Source: Deltaproteobacteria bacterium (lineage in GTDB: Bacteria > Desulfobacterota > Desulfobacteria > Desulfobacterales > B30-G6). Taken from it: DNA of 36,068 nucleotides. This document shows positions 21,836-35,287 of this stretch, piece by piece. A model generated the notes under the pieces. That model was not told the DNA's origin. It saw only the letters and a program-made list of their open reading frames with translations, and did no database searches. Where the stretch lies: the NCBI GenBank assembly GCA_022340465.1, contig JAJDNW010000027.1, positions 1-36,068 on the forward strand, in the 5' to 3' direction. The position numbers were made by a program, and so were the translations under genes. The first letter of the stretch is position 1, and each line of letters opens with the position of its first letter.

Positions 21836-23419
21836 TTACGTTTCCCTGGTCTTGCGGAATTCGATATCCGGCCACGCCTCCATGCTGAAGCCGAGCTGCC
21901 ACTCGCTGGTAGTGAGGAAGGAAAGACTGCCCTCGGCATCCCGGGCCAGGTTCGCGTAATTGCTCTTCTCGAATTCCGCCAGCTTTCTCCGGTCCGGGCA
22001 CGCTACCCACCGGGCGACGCTTAAGTTCACCGGTTCATATTCGGCATCGACGCCGTATTCCGCCTTGAGCCGTGCCATGGTCACGTCGAACTGCAGGACG
22101 CCCACGGCACCGAGAATGTAGTCGTTCCCTGCCAGCGGCCGGAAAACCTGGATCGCCCCCTCTTCCGCAAGCTGAACCAGACCCTTTTTGAGATGCTTCA
22201 TTTTAAGGGGATTCTTCAAACGGACGCGCCTGAAATGCTCGGGAGCGAAATTGGGTATCCCGTTGAACTTCAACGGCTCCTTATCCGTAAAGGTGTCCCC
22301 GATTTTGATCGTCCCGTGGTTGTGGATCCCGATGATATCGCCGGGGTAGGCTTCCTCGACGTTTTCCCGGTCCTGGGCCATAAAAATGGTGGCGTTCGCC
22401 AGGGTGACCCCCTTGCCGATGCGGTGGTGGACAACCTTCATGCCGCGTTGGAATTTCCCGGAACAGATCCGAACGAACGCGATCCTGTCCCGGTGCGACG
22501 GGTCCATATTGGCCTGTATTTTGAAAGTAAAGCCCGAAAAGGCTTCCTCGTAAGGCGAAACATCACGCGAAGCGGCCCTGCGCATGCCCGGATGGGGGGC
22601 CATCTCGACAAAGGCGTCCAGCATTTCCCTGACACCGAAGTTGTTGACGGCGCTTCCGAAAAAAACCGGCGTCTGGCTCCCCTTCAGATACTGGCCCATA
22701 TCGAGAGGGTCGGTGGCTCCTTCGATGAGGGCCACGTCTTCCCTCAGTTCGTCCGCCTGACTGCCCAGCAAATCGTCCAGCTCGGAAGAGCTCAGATCGG
22801 TGATGACAATGCCGTCCTCGACAACCTTGGACCTCCCGGGTTTGAAAAGATGCAACCGTCGCTGATGAAAATTGTACACACCGCGAAAATGCTTTCCCAT
22901 ACCGATGGGCCAGGACAGGGGCGTGCATTCAATCTGCAGCTTTTCCTCGATATCGTCCAGAATATCCAGCGGTGTCATGCCGACACGATCCAGCTTGTTG
23001 ATGAAGGTGATGATGGGCGTGTTGCGCATCCGGCAGACCGCCATCAACTTCTCGGTCTGCGGCTCCACCCCTTTGGCGCTGTCGATAACCATGAGCGCGC
23101 TGTCCACGGCTGTCAGCACCCGATACGTGTCTTCGGAAAAATCCTGATGGCCCGGCGTGTCCAGGAGGTTGATCTCCAGGTCCCTGTAATGAAACTTCAT
23201 GACCGACGACGTAACGGAAATGCCCCTTTCCTTTTCGATGGACATCCAATCACTGGTTGCATGCCGCTGCGCCTTTCTTGCCTTGACGGCCCCGGCCTGC
23301 TGAATGGCCCCGCCAAACAGCAGCAGTTTTTCGGTCAGCGTGGTCTTCCCGGCGTCCGGGTGGCTGATAATGCCGAAGGTGCGCCGCCGCTTCACCTCGT
23401 TTTTATGCACGGTGTTCAT
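21836..23419 (-). CDS. prfC: Peptide chain release factor 3
   Basis: 527 aa, close to E. coli RF3 (529). GTPase domain: P-loop SHPDAGKTT (residues 19-27), switch [16 protein letters not shown] and NKLDR. The start [27 protein letters not shown] is diagnostic for RF3 in contrast to EF-G or EF-Tu. Domain II ([23 protein letters not shown]) and the C-terminal half with AVGVLQFDV are intact. It recycles RF1/RF2 from the ribosome after peptide release. ATG 23419 has an ACAGG site. It is transcribed divergently from the small membrane gene at 23653 across 233 nt. Confidence 0.96.
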
Positions 23420-27784: not shown

Positions 27785-28864
27785 CTATTGCATGCCGGCC
27801 ATGACGGCCGCCTTCAGTTCTTTTGTGTTTTTGGGCGGAGCCGGGAAATCGGCTTTGCTGATCATGGTTATGGCATCTTCAGGACAGCCGGTGGCGCACA
27901 CCGCACATCCGAAGCAGCGGTCCAAATCGAGAACGGGCACGTCATCCTCTCCCATGGAGAGCGCTGCCGGCGGGCACCGGTCGATGCAGGCTTCACAGGC
28001 CACGCAGCGATCCGCATCGAAGCGGGGTTCGAATCCGGAGTTGAAAAAAAGACCGGGCTTGGACTTGGCCAGGGCGCTTTTCACTGCCACGCAGTGATAA
28101 CGGTCGCAATTTCAGAGAAAGCCGATATCCTCGGCAACATTCTGGCTCATGTGAATGAGGCCGGCCTCCTCGGCCCTGTCCAAAACGTGCCGGGCCTCTT
28201 CACTGGACACCCGCCTGGCCCCCAGCCGCTCGATCGCGTACTGTGCGGCCGTGCCGAACTGCATGCACACGTCGTTGGGCATGCCGTGTGTGTCTTCGTC
28301 GCGCAGGGAAGCGGCATGGCGGCAGTAGCAGGTACCCACGGAGATGGTATCGTGCTTGTCGATGAAGGTCTGCACCTGATCGTAGGTGTGCACCTGGTTG
28401 CCGGCCTCGATGGTTCTGTCCACGGTGATGACCCGGCTGGTGGGAAATTCCCCGGCCACGGGGCCGGTCCTGGCATCGAACGCTTTTTCGTATGCATGGA
28501 TGAGGCGGGCGATCTCCTTGTCCCGCGCGCTGGTTCCACCGGGCATGAACTGGTGTTCGAGTATTCCCGGCATGAAACGGGCGCCCTGGTAATACTGGGT
28601 GCCGTCCATTTTCAGAGCCATGCAGAGCCCCTTGTCCGCCATTCCTTCCAGGATTGCTTCCGTTTCAGCCGCATCCCTTCCAAGTTCCTTTGCAAGGCCG
28701 GCAGCCGTGAAAGGCCCCCGGGGCATGGCGTTGTTGACCGCTGCCTCCTCCGGGGTGAACAGCACCTCCACCATGGCGAAAAACTCGGGGATATCCATAC
28801 CGGCATAACGTCCCTTGCGCTTTTTCATCACTTCCAAAAGTTCTCTGTACACGTCCTGGCTCAT
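27785..28864 (-). CDS. Winged-helix/Cys-motif/2x[4Fe-4S] ferredoxin protein with in-frame TGA (candidate selenoprotein)
   Basis: The frame is open over 360 codons apart from one TGA at codon 251 (28114-28112). Reading through it gives 359 aa: an N-terminal winged-helix-like part (about 1-105, NAMPRGPFTAAGLAKEL), a central part with CYCR-x18-C (GTCYCRHA ... DVCMQFG, about 175-200), then GFL-[TGA]-NCDRYHC, and a C-terminal two-cluster ferredoxin (DRCVACEACIDRCPP, DRCFGCAVCATGCPED). A Cys at the TGA would make C-x-C-x4-C, as I recall for homologues ending CNCD-x2-HC. Alternatives are a nonsense mutation or two genes, 28112-28864 and 27785-28090 from a GTG lacking a ribosome site. It follows the FGGY kinase gene by 26 nt. 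Confidence 0.72.
28081..28114 (-). promoter_or_regulatory. Candidate bacterial SECIS element after the in-frame TGA
   Basis: Minus strand: TGA (28114-28112), 15 nt, then TCACTGC (28097-28091), loop GTG (28090-28088) and GCAGTGA (28087-28081): a perfect 7-bp stem with a 3-nt loop starting with G. The TGA-to-loop distance is 22 nt. Stem length, loop G and distance fit the bacterial SECIS pattern as I remember it. The stem lies in coding DNA, so the match could arise by chance. Confidence 0.6.
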
Positions 28865-28890: not shown

Positions 28891-30477
28891 TCATGTTGCG
28901 TTCAGTTTCTTATATATTTTTTTGTTTTTATTATAGATATCCAGAAAGATACCGAAAAGGTCGTCATAGATCCCACGGGTTTCCGGATTGGGTTCGTAGG
29001 TGTTGCGGATCTTGACGTATTTGGGAATGTCATCGAACGCCAGGTAACCCAAGCCTACGGCAGCGATGAAGGCCGTGCCCCGGGCATTGGTCTGGATGGG
29101 GGCCTCCACCTGTTTGACGGTGCGGTCGAAAACGTCTGCATGGATCTGGCACCATATGTCCGACGAGGCCCCGCCGCCCACCAGGTGAATGGGGTCCATC
29201 TTGCGCCCAATGAATTTTTCCACGTAGGTCAGGGCCCAGCGCTGGTTGAATGCGACGCCCTCGAAAAAAGCCCGGATGACGTCTTCCCGGGTGTTTTCGA
29301 GCGACAGGTTGTACAGGCAGGCGCGTACGGCATTGTCCTCCACCGGCGTTTTTTCGCCGTTCAGCCACGGTGTGAAAATGACCTTGTTGCTCCCGGGGGG
29401 GACCTTGGCCGCGATCCCGTCGAACACCTTGTAGATGTCCGGAACGGAGGCTTCCTTCAAAAGCGCGTCCTTATGATAGAGGATGTTGTCCCGCAGGTAG
29501 TTCAAGGTCCCACCGGCGATTTCCTGCTCGTTGACCACGATGTACTTGTCCGGGATGGAAGATGGAATGGAGGCGATCCCGTGCAGGATATCCGTCTTCT
29601 TGAACGGCACGTGTGCCACTATCCAGGACGAGGTGCCGATATAGGCATGCCCCTCGTAGTCTCCCACGGCCCCCGACCCCACGGCGGCTGCCATAATATC
29701 CGGAGAGCCCATGACTACCTGAACATCCTCGCGGAGCCCCAGTTCCCCGGCCAGCTCCTTTTTTATGGGTCCCAGCACATCCACAGCGCGTTTCAGATCG
29801 GGCAGCTTGTCGCGTTCCAGGCCGGTCATTTCAATCAGTTTGTCATGGTAGGTTATCTTTTCCAGATTCCGGTTGTCGGTCACCCAGTGCAGGGTGATCG
29901 CATCGTACGACGATGCGAATTCACCGGTGAGGCAGAGGTTGATGTAATCCCTGGGCTCCAGGAATTTATAGGTCTTTTCATAAACGTCCGGGAACTCGTT
30001 CTTGATGAACAGGATATGCCCCACCGGCTCCTTGCCTGATTGTCCCGGAGCGCCGCCGGTCATCCTGACCCACCGCATCAGCTTGAGGAGTCCGTAGCCC
30101 TCGACCTTGAAGGGCCCGCCCGCCGTAATGTCCTGCACGTACTTTTCCCCGCGCATGTCCATCCAGATGACCGCGTTCATCAGGGGGCGCCCCGCTTCGT
30201 CCACGGCCACCGTCCCCGACCATTGGGTCGAGGCGCAAACAGCCACGATGTCCTCCGCAGGAACCGACCCACGCGACAGCAGCCGCTTCGCGGTGGCCAT
30301 GATGGCACGCCACCACTCCCTGGGGTCCTGTTCGGCGCCGCCACCCGGCAGCAGATTCAGCTGAACGGCCTCGAAGTCGAAATCCACGACTTCGCCGAAG
30401 ACCGAAACGACGGCCATTTTGCTGCCCGATGTCCCCAGATCGATGGACAGGACGTACTTTTCATCGTTTTTCGACAT
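28891..30477 (-). CDS. FGGY-family carbohydrate kinase (xylulokinase-like)
   Basis: 528 aa. FGGY ASKHA kinase with N-terminal phosphate-1 motif SIDLGTSGSKMAVVS (residues 11-25), the ICASTQ-like AVCASTQWSGTVAVDEAG, WMDMRGEKY and C-terminal adenosine motif LVGGGASSDIWCQIHADVF. Length and motifs fit sugar/polyol kinases of the XylB group; the substrate is not readable. Strong Shine-Dalgarno AGGAGGAATT before ATG 30477. It is the first gene of a pair with the selenoprotein-candidate ferredoxin gene. Expression in a sulfate reducer with no other sugar genes nearby suggests a non-canonical substrate. Confidence 0.83.
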   Translation of the reverse strand: MSKNDEKYVLSIDLGTSGSKMAVVSVFGEVVDFDFEAVQLNLLPGGGAEQDPREWWRAIMATAKRLLSRGSVPAEDIVAVCASTQWSGTVAVDEAGRPLMNAVIWMDMRGEKYVQDITAGGPFKVEGYGLLKLMRWVRMTGGAPGQSGKEPVGHILFIKNEFPDVYEKTYKFLEPRDYINLCLTGEFASSYDAITLHWVTDNRNLEKITYHDKLIEMTGLERDKLPDLKRAVDVLGPIKKELAGELGLREDVQVVMGSPDIMAAAVGSGAVGDYEGHAYIGTSSWIVAHVPFKKTDILHGIASIPSSIPDKYIVVNEQEIAGGTLNYLRDNILYHKDALLKEASVPDIYKVFDGIAAKVPPGSNKVIFTPWLNGEKTPVEDNAVRACLYNLSLENTREDVIRAFFEGVAFNQRWALTYVEKFIGRKMDPIHLVGGGASSDIWCQIHADVFDRTVKQVEAPIQTNARGTAFIAAVGLGYLAFDDIPKYVKIRNTYEPNPETRGIYDDLFGIFLDIYNKNKKIYKKLNAT

Positions 30478-30937: not shown

Positions 30938-31003
30938 TCCTGAATCTCGGCATGAGACTTGCTGTCACCTGAACGTAGATTTAAACGACCGGAGAATTGT
31001 ACG

Positions 31004-34000
31004 ATGAATCACGACGACATCACCTATGAGGGCATCGAAATCGGGGCGGTGTCTGTGAAATGGGCCCGTTTGTCTCATGGGCAGAAAGCGACCTTCGAAA
31101 TCAAGCGCCACGAGGGCGATCCCATAAAAACGGTAGAGGAGATCCTGGCGGCCCATAGAACCGGCAAGGTAGCCGCGGTCATGGTGACCGGCCAGGCCAC
31201 CAAATCATTCTTTGACCTGCCCTACCGTTCCGAAATCGAATGCCTTGAAAGGGCCCTGCAGTCATCCCGATCCAAGCCGGACTTGCTGCTGTCTCTCGGC
31301 GGGGAAACGTTCAGCGTCTACCCCATGAAAAATGGAAATATCCGCAACATCATCGCCTCTTCAAAATGCGCCGCAGGCACCGGCGAGTTCATGGTCCAGC
31401 AGTTTCAGCGCATGGGGTTGTCCCTCGAAGATGGACTGGCAGCCGGGAAGGATGGAGAAAAGGTCCAACTGGCCACCAGATGCTCCGTCCACTGCAAGTC
31501 GGACGCTACCCACAAGCTCAACAAAGGCGAATGCAAACCCGGGGACATTGCCGCATCCCTGATACACGACCTGGCTAAAAAGGTCGCCGAAATGGTCCGA
31601 ACGGCCCAGTGGCCGGCCAAATCGATGGTTGTCGTCGGCGGCGTGTCCGCAAACGCCTTGTTTATCGATCATTTGCGAAGCCTCTTCCAAGATGCGGATA
31701 TCCGGGTATTGCCGGAGAGCCCCTATTTTGAGGCTTTTGGCGCCGCCCTCCTGGCACGGGACCAGACGACTCCGGGAAATCGCATGCCGGCCAACCGGAT
31801 CAAGGCGGCTGAACTGCCTTTCGAACGATTGAAGCCACTCAGAGCGGCGAAGCATCTTTTGGATTTCAGGGTCCAGCGGGACGGGCTGTCCGCCATTGAA
31901 GACGGCCGCACCTACCTGCTGGGAGTGGATGCCGGTTCGACCACCACCAAGGCCGTTTTGCTGGATGCCGACAGGCTAACGGTCGGCGCATCCTGTTATC
32001 TGCGTACCCTGGGCGACCCGGTCTCGACCGTTAAAAAGTGCATCCGTGCCTTGCTCGATCAGGTGGGCGACAAAACGGTCCAGGTTATTCAGGCCGGAGC
32101 CACCGGTTCAGGCCGCGAAATGGTTTCGGTCTATCTGAACAGCTGCTCGAGTTTCAATGAAATCCTGGCACACGCCCGCGCGGCCGCCCACGAAGTCCCG
32201 GATGTTGATACGGTTTTCGAAATCGGCGGGCAGGATTCCAAATTTATCTCCTTTCTGAACGGCATCCCGGTGGATTATGCCATGAATGAGGGCTGCTCCG
32301 CCGGCACCGGCAGTTTTCTCGAGGAGTCCGCCTCCGTCGATATGAATATAGCCGTGGAGGAAATCAGCGGCATCGCCGAAAAAAGCACGGTTCCTATCGC
32401 CTTTGGCGAACGGTGTGCCGCCTTTATCAACACGGATTTGAGAAACGCCCTCCAACAGGGGGCCGAGCGCCAAGACGTCACCGCCGGGTTGGTCTACTCT
32501 ATTGCCGAGAATTATATCTCGCGCATCGTGGGGTCGCGTCACATCGGAGAAAGGCTGCTGTTTCTGGGGGGCGTGGCGTTGAACCGGTCGGTTGGCCTGG
32601 CCATGGCCGCCCGCACAGGGCAGAAAGTGGTGGTGCCGCCGCATCCTGAATTGATGGGCTGCGTGGGAACGGCCTTGATGCTGAAGGATCTCCTGGACAG
32701 GGGGGACATCACGGCACAAACCATCGACATCGATGAATTCCTCAAAGGCGGCATCAACATCAAAAGGACCTTCCGCTGCAAAGCCTGTGAAAACGTCTGT
32801 GAAATCAAGATGGTGGACATCAGGGGCAAATCCTATCCCTTCGGCGGACTCTGTTCCAAATACGAAATGCTGCGTCACGGCAAAAAAGGCCGTCAGGAGG
32901 GCCGCGATCTCGTGGCGCTGCGAGATAAGCTGATGTTCGAAACATTCAATCCCGAGCCTCCTGCAAAACCGTTGGGCACCATCGGTCTGCCCATGGCACT
33001 GTCGACCTTTGAACTGTTTCCGTTCTACGCCGCCCTGATCACCGCCATGGGATATCAAACGGTGCTGTCGGACACGTTCGAAAAGGGAACGTCCAAACCC
33101 ACGGCGGCCATATGCTACCCCTGTGAAATCGTGCATGGAGCGGTCCATGATCTTCTGGACCGGCAGGTGGATTACATTTTTCTGCCTTACCTCATAGAGC
33201 TTTCCGGTCCGGAGGAGGCGCTGCATGCCTATACCTGCACGTCCACGACAGCCATCCCGGACATTATCCGGGCGGCTTTTGGAGAAGCCTCGGAAAAAAT
33301 CATCTCCCCGCACATCAGTTTGTCCGAAGATCATCTGGAAACGACCCTCAAAGAAATTGAAAGGGTGGGCGCCAGGCTGGGAGTGGATGCGCATGCCGCA
33401 AGGCAAGCCGGCAAGAAGGCCTTGCAATTCTATGATGCTTTCATCCGGTCCTACCGTGAGCTGGGACACGAGGAATTAAAAAAAATAGAGGGAGAGCCCG
33501 CCGTAATTATCGCCGGCAGACCCTACACCGTGTGTGCCCCGGACGTTAACCTGGCGCTGCCGCGCAAGATCGTCAGCCGGGGGTATCATGCCGTCCCGGT
33601 CGATATGCTGCCGAAATTGGATGCCTCCTCGCAAAAACGAAACGTCTGGTACTTTACGCAGCAAATCGACAACGCAACAGCCTATACCCGTCGACATCCC
33701 AATGTTCACATCTGTCTGGTATCCTGCTTCTCTTGCGGACCCGACAGTTCCATGTACCACGCCTTCCGTGATCAGCTGAAAGGCCGCACCTTCTGCTATC
33801 TGGAAATAGATTCACACACGGCCCACGCAGGTTTCGAAACCCGCATCGGGGCCTTCCTGGACATCATCGAGGAAAACGAGCGTCGAAAAGAGACCGGGGA
33901 AAGCCGGGCGGATGAGGTGCATCCCGGCACATCCGGAACCCGGCAGGCGGCCCTCTCCCCCGACTTCGAGTTTGTTCTGGACAGCCACGGCAATCGCGTC

Positions 34001-35287
34001 GAATTCGGAGACCCCCGAATCGTCCACATTCATACGGACATCATCAACCGGTTTGCCGGGCAGATGACGGCGTCGGTGTACCGGAAGCATGGTCTCAGGT
34101 TTCGGGCCATGGGCAAACCCACGCCGGAAATCATGCAGTATGCCCGCAAGGTCTGTTCCGGAAGGGAATGCATTCCGATGACGTCCATCACCGGTGCCGT
34201 CGTCGACGACATGCTGAACAAACGAAGCCCCGACGAAATCGCGGTCTATTTCACCCTGGACCAGGAAGGCCCCTGTCAGAATGGCGCCTGGCCTGTCATC
34301 TGGAACATTTTCAACCGCAGGCTCAATCTGGAAAATATCATCTGGGGCGTCAACCGCAACACGACGCCGAACGCGCTGGGGCTGAACGGCGCCATCCAGA
34401 GCGCCATCAACGACGCCTCCCTGCTTGGGGACCTGTTCGAAGAAGCCGAGAATGCCCTGAAGTGCGCCGCACGGCATGCGGACGACGCATTGGACCGATT
34501 CGAACAGGCCTTCGACACCTTCAATGCCATGCTGGTAAAAGGCGACAAGCTTGAAGAGGCCCTGGGCGCATGGGCTGAACAAACCGCCGCGATCCCATTG
34601 AAAGCGCCCATCGATACTTTTCCCAAGGTGCTCGTTTTTGGCGGGCTGAACGTCATGTTCGTGCACTTTCCGGTAACCGCATATTTCATAGACCAGGGAA
34701 TCGTTCCCAAAATTGTCGAGGTGAGCGAAGGCGCCTGCTGGCTGGCGTCTGAAGGCATGTCCCGCCACGGTTATAAAAAGGGGTACATCAAACCGTCTGA
34801 GCAATTCTCCTGTCCCCCCTCCAGGGAAAACAGGCAGGAAGCCCTGGAAGTCAGAAAGTCGCGATTCGGTTTGAAGCGCATCGAATCACGTCAAAAGAAG
34901 TTCAGAGACATAATGGCCAAATCAGGGCTCTTGTTCGATCATCCCCTGCCTTTCGCTGACATCATGGATGCCGGCCACCAATACATATCCTACAACGGTT
35001 TTACGGAAACCCCCGTGACGACGGGAAGATATGTTTGTTCGCTGCAGGACGGGCTTTATGACGGCTACATCAACCTGGGATCGTTCAACTGCCAACCCGC
35101 CATGAATTCGCAGGCCATCGTTCGTCCTATTGCCAACGCCAGCGACATACCCTACGTGGCCCTGGACTGCGAAGGCCCGTGGATATCGGCCAATCAACGC
35201 CGGCTGTTGGAGGTCGTCGCCGTGAAAGCCAAAAAAATACGGGAAGAAGCGAAAATGGCGTTTCATATGAACATGGCGACTAAATAG
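31004..35287 (+). CDS. Fused CoA-enzyme activase and 2-hydroxyacyl-CoA dehydratase-like protein, 1427 aa
   Basis: Single polypeptide. It has two BcrAD/BadFG ASKHA ATPase domains: domain 1 (about 5-275, lacks the classic P-motif, has KCAAGTGEF near 119) and domain 2 (about 303-575, GVDAGSTTTKAVLL, FEIGGQDSKF, CSAGTGSF with the cluster-binding Cys). Next comes a Cys-rich hinge (CKACENVCEIKM, about residue 592) and a DUF2229/HgdB-like part with CYPCEIVHGA, CFSCGPDSSMYHAF and CSGRECIPMTS. The ATPase domain should pump an electron at low potential into the partner [4Fe-4S] site, here fused. Proteins of ~1400 aa with this order occur in anaerobes, but the substrate is unknown (double-cubane-type reductase possible). 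ATG 31004 follows GGAG at 30991-30994. Confidence 0.88.
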   Translation: MNHDDITYEGIEIGAVSVKWARLSHGQKATFEIKRHEGDPIKTVEEILAAHRTGKVAAVMVTGQATKSFFDLPYRSEIECLERALQSSRSKPDLLLSLGGETFSVYPMKNGNIRNIIASSKCAAGTGEFMVQQFQRMGLSLEDGLAAGKDGEKVQLATRCSVHCKSDATHKLNKGECKPGDIAASLIHDLAKKVAEMVRTAQWPAKSMVVVGGVSANALFIDHLRSLFQDADIRVLPESPYFEAFGAALLARDQTTPGNRMPANRIKAAELPFERLKPLRAAKHLLDFRVQRDGLSAIEDGRTYLLGVDAGSTTTKAVLLDADRLTVGASCYLRTLGDPVSTVKKCIRALLDQVGDKTVQVIQAGATGSGREMVSVYLNSCSSFNEILAHARAAAHEVPDVDTVFEIGGQDSKFISFLNGIPVDYAMNEGCSAGTGSFLEESASVDMNIAVEEISGIAEKSTVPIAFGERCAAFINTDLRNALQQGAERQDVTAGLVYSIAENYISRIVGSRHIGERLLFLGGVALNRSVGLAMAARTGQKVVVPPHPELMGCVGTALMLKDLLDRGDITAQTIDIDEFLKGGINIKRTFRCKACENVCEIKMVDIRGKSYPFGGLCSKYEMLRHGKKGRQEGRDLVALRDKLMFETFNPEPPAKPLGTIGLPMALSTFELFPFYAALITAMGYQTVLSDTFEKGTSKPTAAICYPCEIVHGAVHDLLDRQVDYIFLPYLIELSGPEEALHAYTCTSTTAIPDIIRAAFGEASEKIISPHISLSEDHLETTLKEIERVGARLGVDAHAARQAGKKALQFYDAFIRSYRELGHEELKKIEGEPAVIIAGRPYTVCAPDVNLALPRKIVSRGYHAVPVDMLPKLDASSQKRNVWYFTQQIDNATAYTRRHPNVHICLVSCFSCGPDSSMYHAFRDQLKGRTFCYLEIDSHTAHAGFETRIGAFLDIIEENERRKETGESRADEVHPGTSGTRQAALSPDFEFVLDSHGNRVEFGDPRIVHIHTDIINRFAGQMTASVYRKHGLRFRAMGKPTPEIMQYARKVCSGRECIPMTSITGAVVDDMLNKRSPDEIAVYFTLDQEGPCQNGAWPVIWNIFNRRLNLENIIWGVNRNTTPNALGLNGAIQSAINDASLLGDLFEEAENALKCAARHADDALDRFEQAFDTFNAMLVKGDKLEEALGAWAEQTAAIPLKAPIDTFPKVLVFGGLNVMFVHFPVTAYFIDQGIVPKIVEVSEGACWLASEGMSRHGYKKGYIKPSEQFSCPPSRENRQEALEVRKSRFGLKRIESRQKKFRDIMAKSGLLFDHPLPFADIMDAGHQYISYNGFTETPVTTGRYVCSLQDGLYDGYINLGSFNCQPAMNSQAIVRPIANASDIPYVALDCEGPWISANQRRLLEVVAVKAKKIREEAKMAFHMNMATK

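Follow-up and report, generated by a model that had tools for sequence, protein, structure and literature searches.

The 2026 inventory of prokaryotic selenoproteins comprises 119 families (PMC13188914), and further selenoprotein candidates are reported in a supplement (PMC8318568). Several described selenoproteins of Desulfobacterota, namely HdrA, MvhD/VhuD and the GlpC-like Fe-S oxidoreductase, carry selenocysteine (Sec) in iron-sulfur electron-transfer proteins, and Sec is also reported in some members of the mercury-methylation ferredoxin HgcB and of the Fe-S cluster domain protein NF005503, where it lies in a UxxC motif (PMC13188914). Here we report on a gene of a member of the Desulfobacterales that is located in a window of 36,068 nucleotides (the whole stretch of DNA analyzed, contig JAJDNW010000027.1) and that very probably, judging from comparative sequence evidence, represents a selenoprotein family predicted to incorporate selenium. 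Like the Sec/Cys-paired bacterial families of the inventory, it combines a TGA at a conserved cysteine position with a SECIS-like hairpin and a Sec machinery; unlike all 119 listed families, it joins a winged helix, a CxCR...UxCx4C domain and a ferredoxin (PMC13188914). The family is missing from that inventory as well as from the nine deep-Sep families (PMC12013277), in agreement with the preliminary description of this DNA, which knew of no account of it as a selenoprotein; an earlier, unnamed mention may exist among the supplementary candidates of PMC8318568. A selenoprotein-rich group of anaerobes would thus gain a family that the current inventory lacks.

The resemblance to the described systems is partial in each case. 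As in HdrA, MvhD/VhuD and the GlpC-like protein, the predicted Sec would belong to an iron-sulfur electron-transfer protein, whereas the domains of these proteins are unrelated to those of the candidate except for the ferredoxin module. HgcB and NF005503 share ferredoxin-type clusters with it; unlike in these two, however, the candidate Sec motif is UxCx4C and lies outside the ferredoxin. The HgcB model NF040864 of NCBIfam scored 38.7 bits, below its cut-off of 99, and NF005503 was not among the matches listed, its sister model NF005504 reaching 27.6 bits against a cut-off of 437; no NCBIfam model exceeded its cut-off among the matches listed. The C-terminal domain resembles a PorD-type 2x[4Fe-4S] ferredoxin (36% identity over 61 alignment columns to 9bt4_H), a likeness limited to the C-terminal sixth of the protein.

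Reading frame and position of the TGA codon

The preliminary description had placed a single TGA at codon 251 of a frame open on either side, without naming the strand; both the coordinates and the codon number proved correct, and we place the gene on the minus strand (Table 1). The frame has 359 codons and the TGA is its sole interruption, flanked by 250 sense codons before and 108 codons after. The codons that follow start with NCDRYHC and then run into a two-cluster ferredoxin (two CxxCxxC...C motifs). Such a gene is one that ordinary ORF callers split in two.

Table 1. Positions in the window of the predicted selenoprotein gene, its parts and the adjoining kinase gene.
Feature	Position	Strand	Basis or remark
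Predicted selenoprotein gene, 359 residues, Sec at 251, ATG (28864)...TGA(Sec)...TAG (27785)	27785..28864	minus	Frame, homologues, selection
In-frame TGA, codon 251, predicted selenocysteine	28112..28114	minus	Cys codon in relatives; TGA in three species
SECIS-like hairpin TCACTGC-GTG-GCAGTGA	28081..28097	minus	Apical loop from nt 22 after TGA
Winged-helix domain, N-terminal, about residues 21-105	28550..28804	minus	AF2 model, fold matches
Middle domain, residues 136-275, C179-x-C181-R, C200, U251-x-C253-x4-C258	28040..28459	minus	Invariant positions
Two-[4Fe-4S] ferredoxin domain, C-terminal, about residues 278-336	27857..28033	minus	Pfam, PorD-like fold
FGGY-family carbohydrate kinase gene, directly upstream, 26-nt gap	28891..30477	minus	Context only

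Domain organization and predicted function

The protein was modeled with AlphaFold2 at a pLDDT of 90.5. The best fold matches of the N-terminal domain were winged-helix regulators of the ArsR/MarR/TrmB type (6cmv_C, Z 8.2 over 101 residues, rmsd 8.5; 1q1h, Z 7.4 over 78 residues, rmsd 2.5), while the Pfam TrmB match was weak and under the cut-off, and a PDB sequence search with the N-terminal profile returned weak winged-helix matches only. The ferredoxin domain exceeded the Pfam cut-offs (Fer4, 38.5 bits against 21.1; Fer4_7, 31.8 bits against 27), and the full profile retrieved from the PDB ferredoxin modules and polyferredoxins only. For the middle domain, a sequence search of the PDB up to E 10 found nothing, Foldseek gave no match better than E 1 (best E 1.2; best VIA Z 3.6), and there was no Pfam or NCBIfam match, all at the sensitivity used; such missing matches do not show a new fold. 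Six of its positions (C179, C181, C200, 251, C253 and C258) are invariant, as are the eight cysteines of the ferredoxin. The winged helix, the CYCR-x18-C motif and the U/C-x-C-x4-C motif named in the preliminary description were each found in the protein, and the predicted Sec sits in the last of these, between the winged helix and the 2x[4Fe-4S] ferredoxin.

We propose that U251-x-C253-x4-C258 would form, together with C179-x-C181 and C200, a metal or redox site, and that electrons would pass between this site and the fused ferredoxin. Sec at this site would have a lowered pKa and would resist irreversible oxidation. It is possible, with the balance tilted somewhat against it, that Sec251 binds an iron-sulfur (or other metal) cluster directly through its selenolate; if true, the family would offer a natural Sec/Cys pair for probing the effect of selenium on a biological Fe-S site. 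In this widespread, uncharacterized iron-sulfur family, the residue at the Sec position is likely to be reactive or to bind metal, and it therefore points to the active site of the family.

The gene neighborhood bears on the role of the product. Genes for formate-dehydrogenase-like molybdopterin oxidoreductases adjoin about ten loci of cysteine homologues. In the species with the TGA no molybdopterin oxidoreductase gene was found beside the selenoprotein gene; homologues of the oxidoreductase are located elsewhere in these genomes, one of them, in the congeneric genome G218, at a distance of about 1.4 kb from a family paralogue. From this gene context, the product may be a cytoplasmic iron-sulfur electron-transfer protein, a role to which we give about an even chance, with the formate-dehydrogenase-like oxidoreductases as its likely partners and the winged helix probably serving partner binding or dimerization. 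The main rival to this role is a redox- or metal-sensing transcription regulator, in which the winged helix would bind DNA and the Sec/Cys site would sense redox state. The regulator-like fold of residues 20-105 and the MarR or TetR-like genes that lie close to some homologues speak for it, whereas the ferredoxin at the C terminus, both clusters of which are intact, and the recurrent adjacency of molybdopterin oxidoreductases suggest electron transfer, and the many paralogues of the family per genome also count against a regulator; we regard it as rather unlikely. This alternative bears on function alone and can hold together with Sec insertion, so its likelihood is not to be added to those of the three alternatives considered below.

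FmdE or HypA genes are also found close to some cysteine homologues. On the 3' side, the species with the TGA have a convergent amidase gene and a DUF3108 gene. At the locus L043 of one relative, an FGGY kinase gene 80% identical to that of the window lies 1.9 kb upstream; the segment between it and the selenoprotein gene (L043, 1910-3734) holds an N-terminal fragment of an aldehyde ferredoxin oxidoreductase and a PLP-decarboxylase-like frame, includes a stretch of Ns, and may be an assembly join. Elsewhere in the window, positions 30959-35287 (plus strand) encode a 1442-residue fusion of a BcrAD/BadFG ATPase with DUF2229, of the CoA-dehydratase activator kind, and positions 21836-23419 (minus strand) a release factor RF3.

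Homologues and the cysteine column

Of 241 genomes from the class that were searched for homologues, 202 had matches; GTDB contigs contributed 33 loci, and a sample of 395 genomes of the phylum supplied more. Two pairs of loci were the same in sequence (L014 and L043; L044 and L091) and each pair was counted once. The results showed that TGC or TGT stands at the column of the TGA in all 62 distinct cysteine homologues, and the Cys251 column was invariant in a 39-row alignment in which identity reached down to 26%. The preliminary description had named cysteine in relatives at this column as a support for Sec, and the cysteine is there with no exception; homologues ending at the TGA position or having no Cys at the column, either of which would have spoken against its reading, were not seen among the homologues found. 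As side observations, G133 and other genomes of the class contain as many as eight scored family paralogues each, and a CNCCxCxC version of the motif is present among them.

Both halves form a single open frame in every homologue found. This bears on the possibility that the locus makes two proteins, a 250-residue product ending at the TGA and a small ferredoxin restarted from an internal GTG. A GTG-started ORF of 101 amino acids is present in the mechanical ORF list, and a 2x[4Fe-4S] ferredoxin could function as a separate protein; yet the homologues are all fused, and residues 252-258, which a restart would skip, stay conserved with N252, C253 and C258 intact. The in-frame starts shortly past the TGA are internal GTG codons only, and as the preliminary description had noted, no ribosome site is evident for them on reading the sequence. 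We consider two separate products very improbable.

The family-level search included four genomes. The same TGA was present in all three that have the gene, which belong to one genus, and a close copy was not found in the fourth (83% complete, another genus). In the tree the three TGA sequences form one clade (support 98/94) nested within the cysteine sequences, a pattern for which a single Cys-to-Sec change suffices. The invariant cysteine would accordingly have been replaced by Sec once, in the ancestor of the genus, and as read from these sequences the switch is young and confined to one genus among the genomes sampled.

Selection after the TGA codon

Between the three TGA species the genes are 77-84% identical in nucleotide sequence and have no other disabling change. 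Over the 106 codons after the TGA omega was 0.06-0.15 at a dS of 0.7-1.1, similar to the 0.10-0.12 obtained before it. Because the stop falls on an invariant cysteine column, in three species and at strong synonymous divergence, its placement in these sequences is beyond chance. A pseudogene would be a simple alternative, in which a recent nonsense mutation struck a Cys codon of a decaying gene: one base change turns TGC or TGT into TGA, and one of these two codons stands there in every close relative. However, a TGA shared by three species at this divergence, followed by a part of the gene that is still under constraint, is not what decay leaves behind; since purifying selection persists past the TGA, gene decay can be set aside as extremely improbable. 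Sequencing error is likewise very unlikely, because the TGA is conserved across separate assemblies. In codons 252-263, nine of ten informative codons were identical against a background of 47%, a result of the synonymous-conservation run test that is suggestive only.

Selenium machinery and the SECIS-like hairpin

The presence of selA, selB, selC and selD, named as a check in the preliminary description, was borne out for all four: SelA (592.6 bits), SelB (374.5 bits), tRNA-Sec (75.4 bits) and SelD (385.9 bits) are found in the genome, and the gene of SelD itself carries an in-frame TGA. In G218, a relative of the same genus, SelA, SelD with a TGA and tRNA-Sec were found. HdrA, MvhD-like and FdhA-like genes of the genome are also interrupted by TGA, and the genome is therefore selenoprotein-rich. 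About a dozen TGA-interrupted HdrA- or MvhD-like frames were noted on contigs C113, C89, C11, C112, C67, C115, C127 and C92 of this genome (G000), and many of its HdrA copies are fused or lie in arrays.

The hairpin downstream of the TGA has 7 bp, a 3-nt loop (GTG) and a folding energy of -8.4 kcal/mol, and starts 15 nt past the TGA. The bacterial SECIS model has a G in the apical loop, and the loop at +22 conforms to it. In five reference selenoprotein genes from this genome (selD, one hdrA, one mvhD-like gene and two of the fdhA-like type), the hairpins place the loop at +19 to +24 and have loops of 3-5 nt, stems of 6-8 bp and energies of -7.0 to -9.7 kcal/mol, a range into which the candidate falls. 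Its 6-bp core stem is identical across the three TGA species (-6.5 kcal/mol in the two relatives), which leaves no compensatory change to score. A tight hairpin criterion was passed by all three TGA genes, by none of the 62 cysteine homologues and by 0.94% of codon positions in the genes of the window; as it was drawn from the positives after seeing them, this result is supportive and is not an independent test. By a loose criterion, an equally good fold is reached by 2.3% of synonymous recodings and by 4.2% of codon positions, and the minimum free energy was no better than that obtained after shuffling (z from about -0.9 to 0; folding of the whole region not significant). A search with the Rfam model SECIS_1 had no match in the genome and none in the control genomes either, and is hence uninformative. 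The hairpin alone is not decisive. The peptide HCVAV is encoded in ten cysteine homologues, none of which has the 6-bp stem (0/10). The hairpin is missing from the cysteine relatives and built mostly via synonymous codon choice in a peptide common to many of them, which illustrates how little is needed to turn a cysteine protein into a selenoprotein.

That the TGA is read as Trp or Cys, by a suppressor tRNA or by genome-wide reassignment, would fit the cysteine of the relatives, and which residue is inserted does not follow from a frame being open under an altered code, but TGA is an ordinary stop for several genes of the window and the genome has the full Sec machinery and other Sec genes with hairpins like this one, so that such a reading is most improbable. 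The proposal of a selenoprotein made in the preliminary description is upheld by the TGA kept in three species, the selection after it and a hairpin resembling those in other selenoprotein genes of the genome: UGA-251 is, with high probability on these comparative grounds, decoded as selenocysteine within a single reading frame. SelA, SelB, tRNA-Sec and SelD of the cell would carry out the decoding, directed by the short hairpin 15-31 nt downstream.

As a separate observation, a molybdopterin oxidoreductase relative of a sister species (L125; G242 C2:257-2506) is interrupted by one TGA and is possibly another Sec enzyme; a second G242 copy (C230) likewise contains a TGA.
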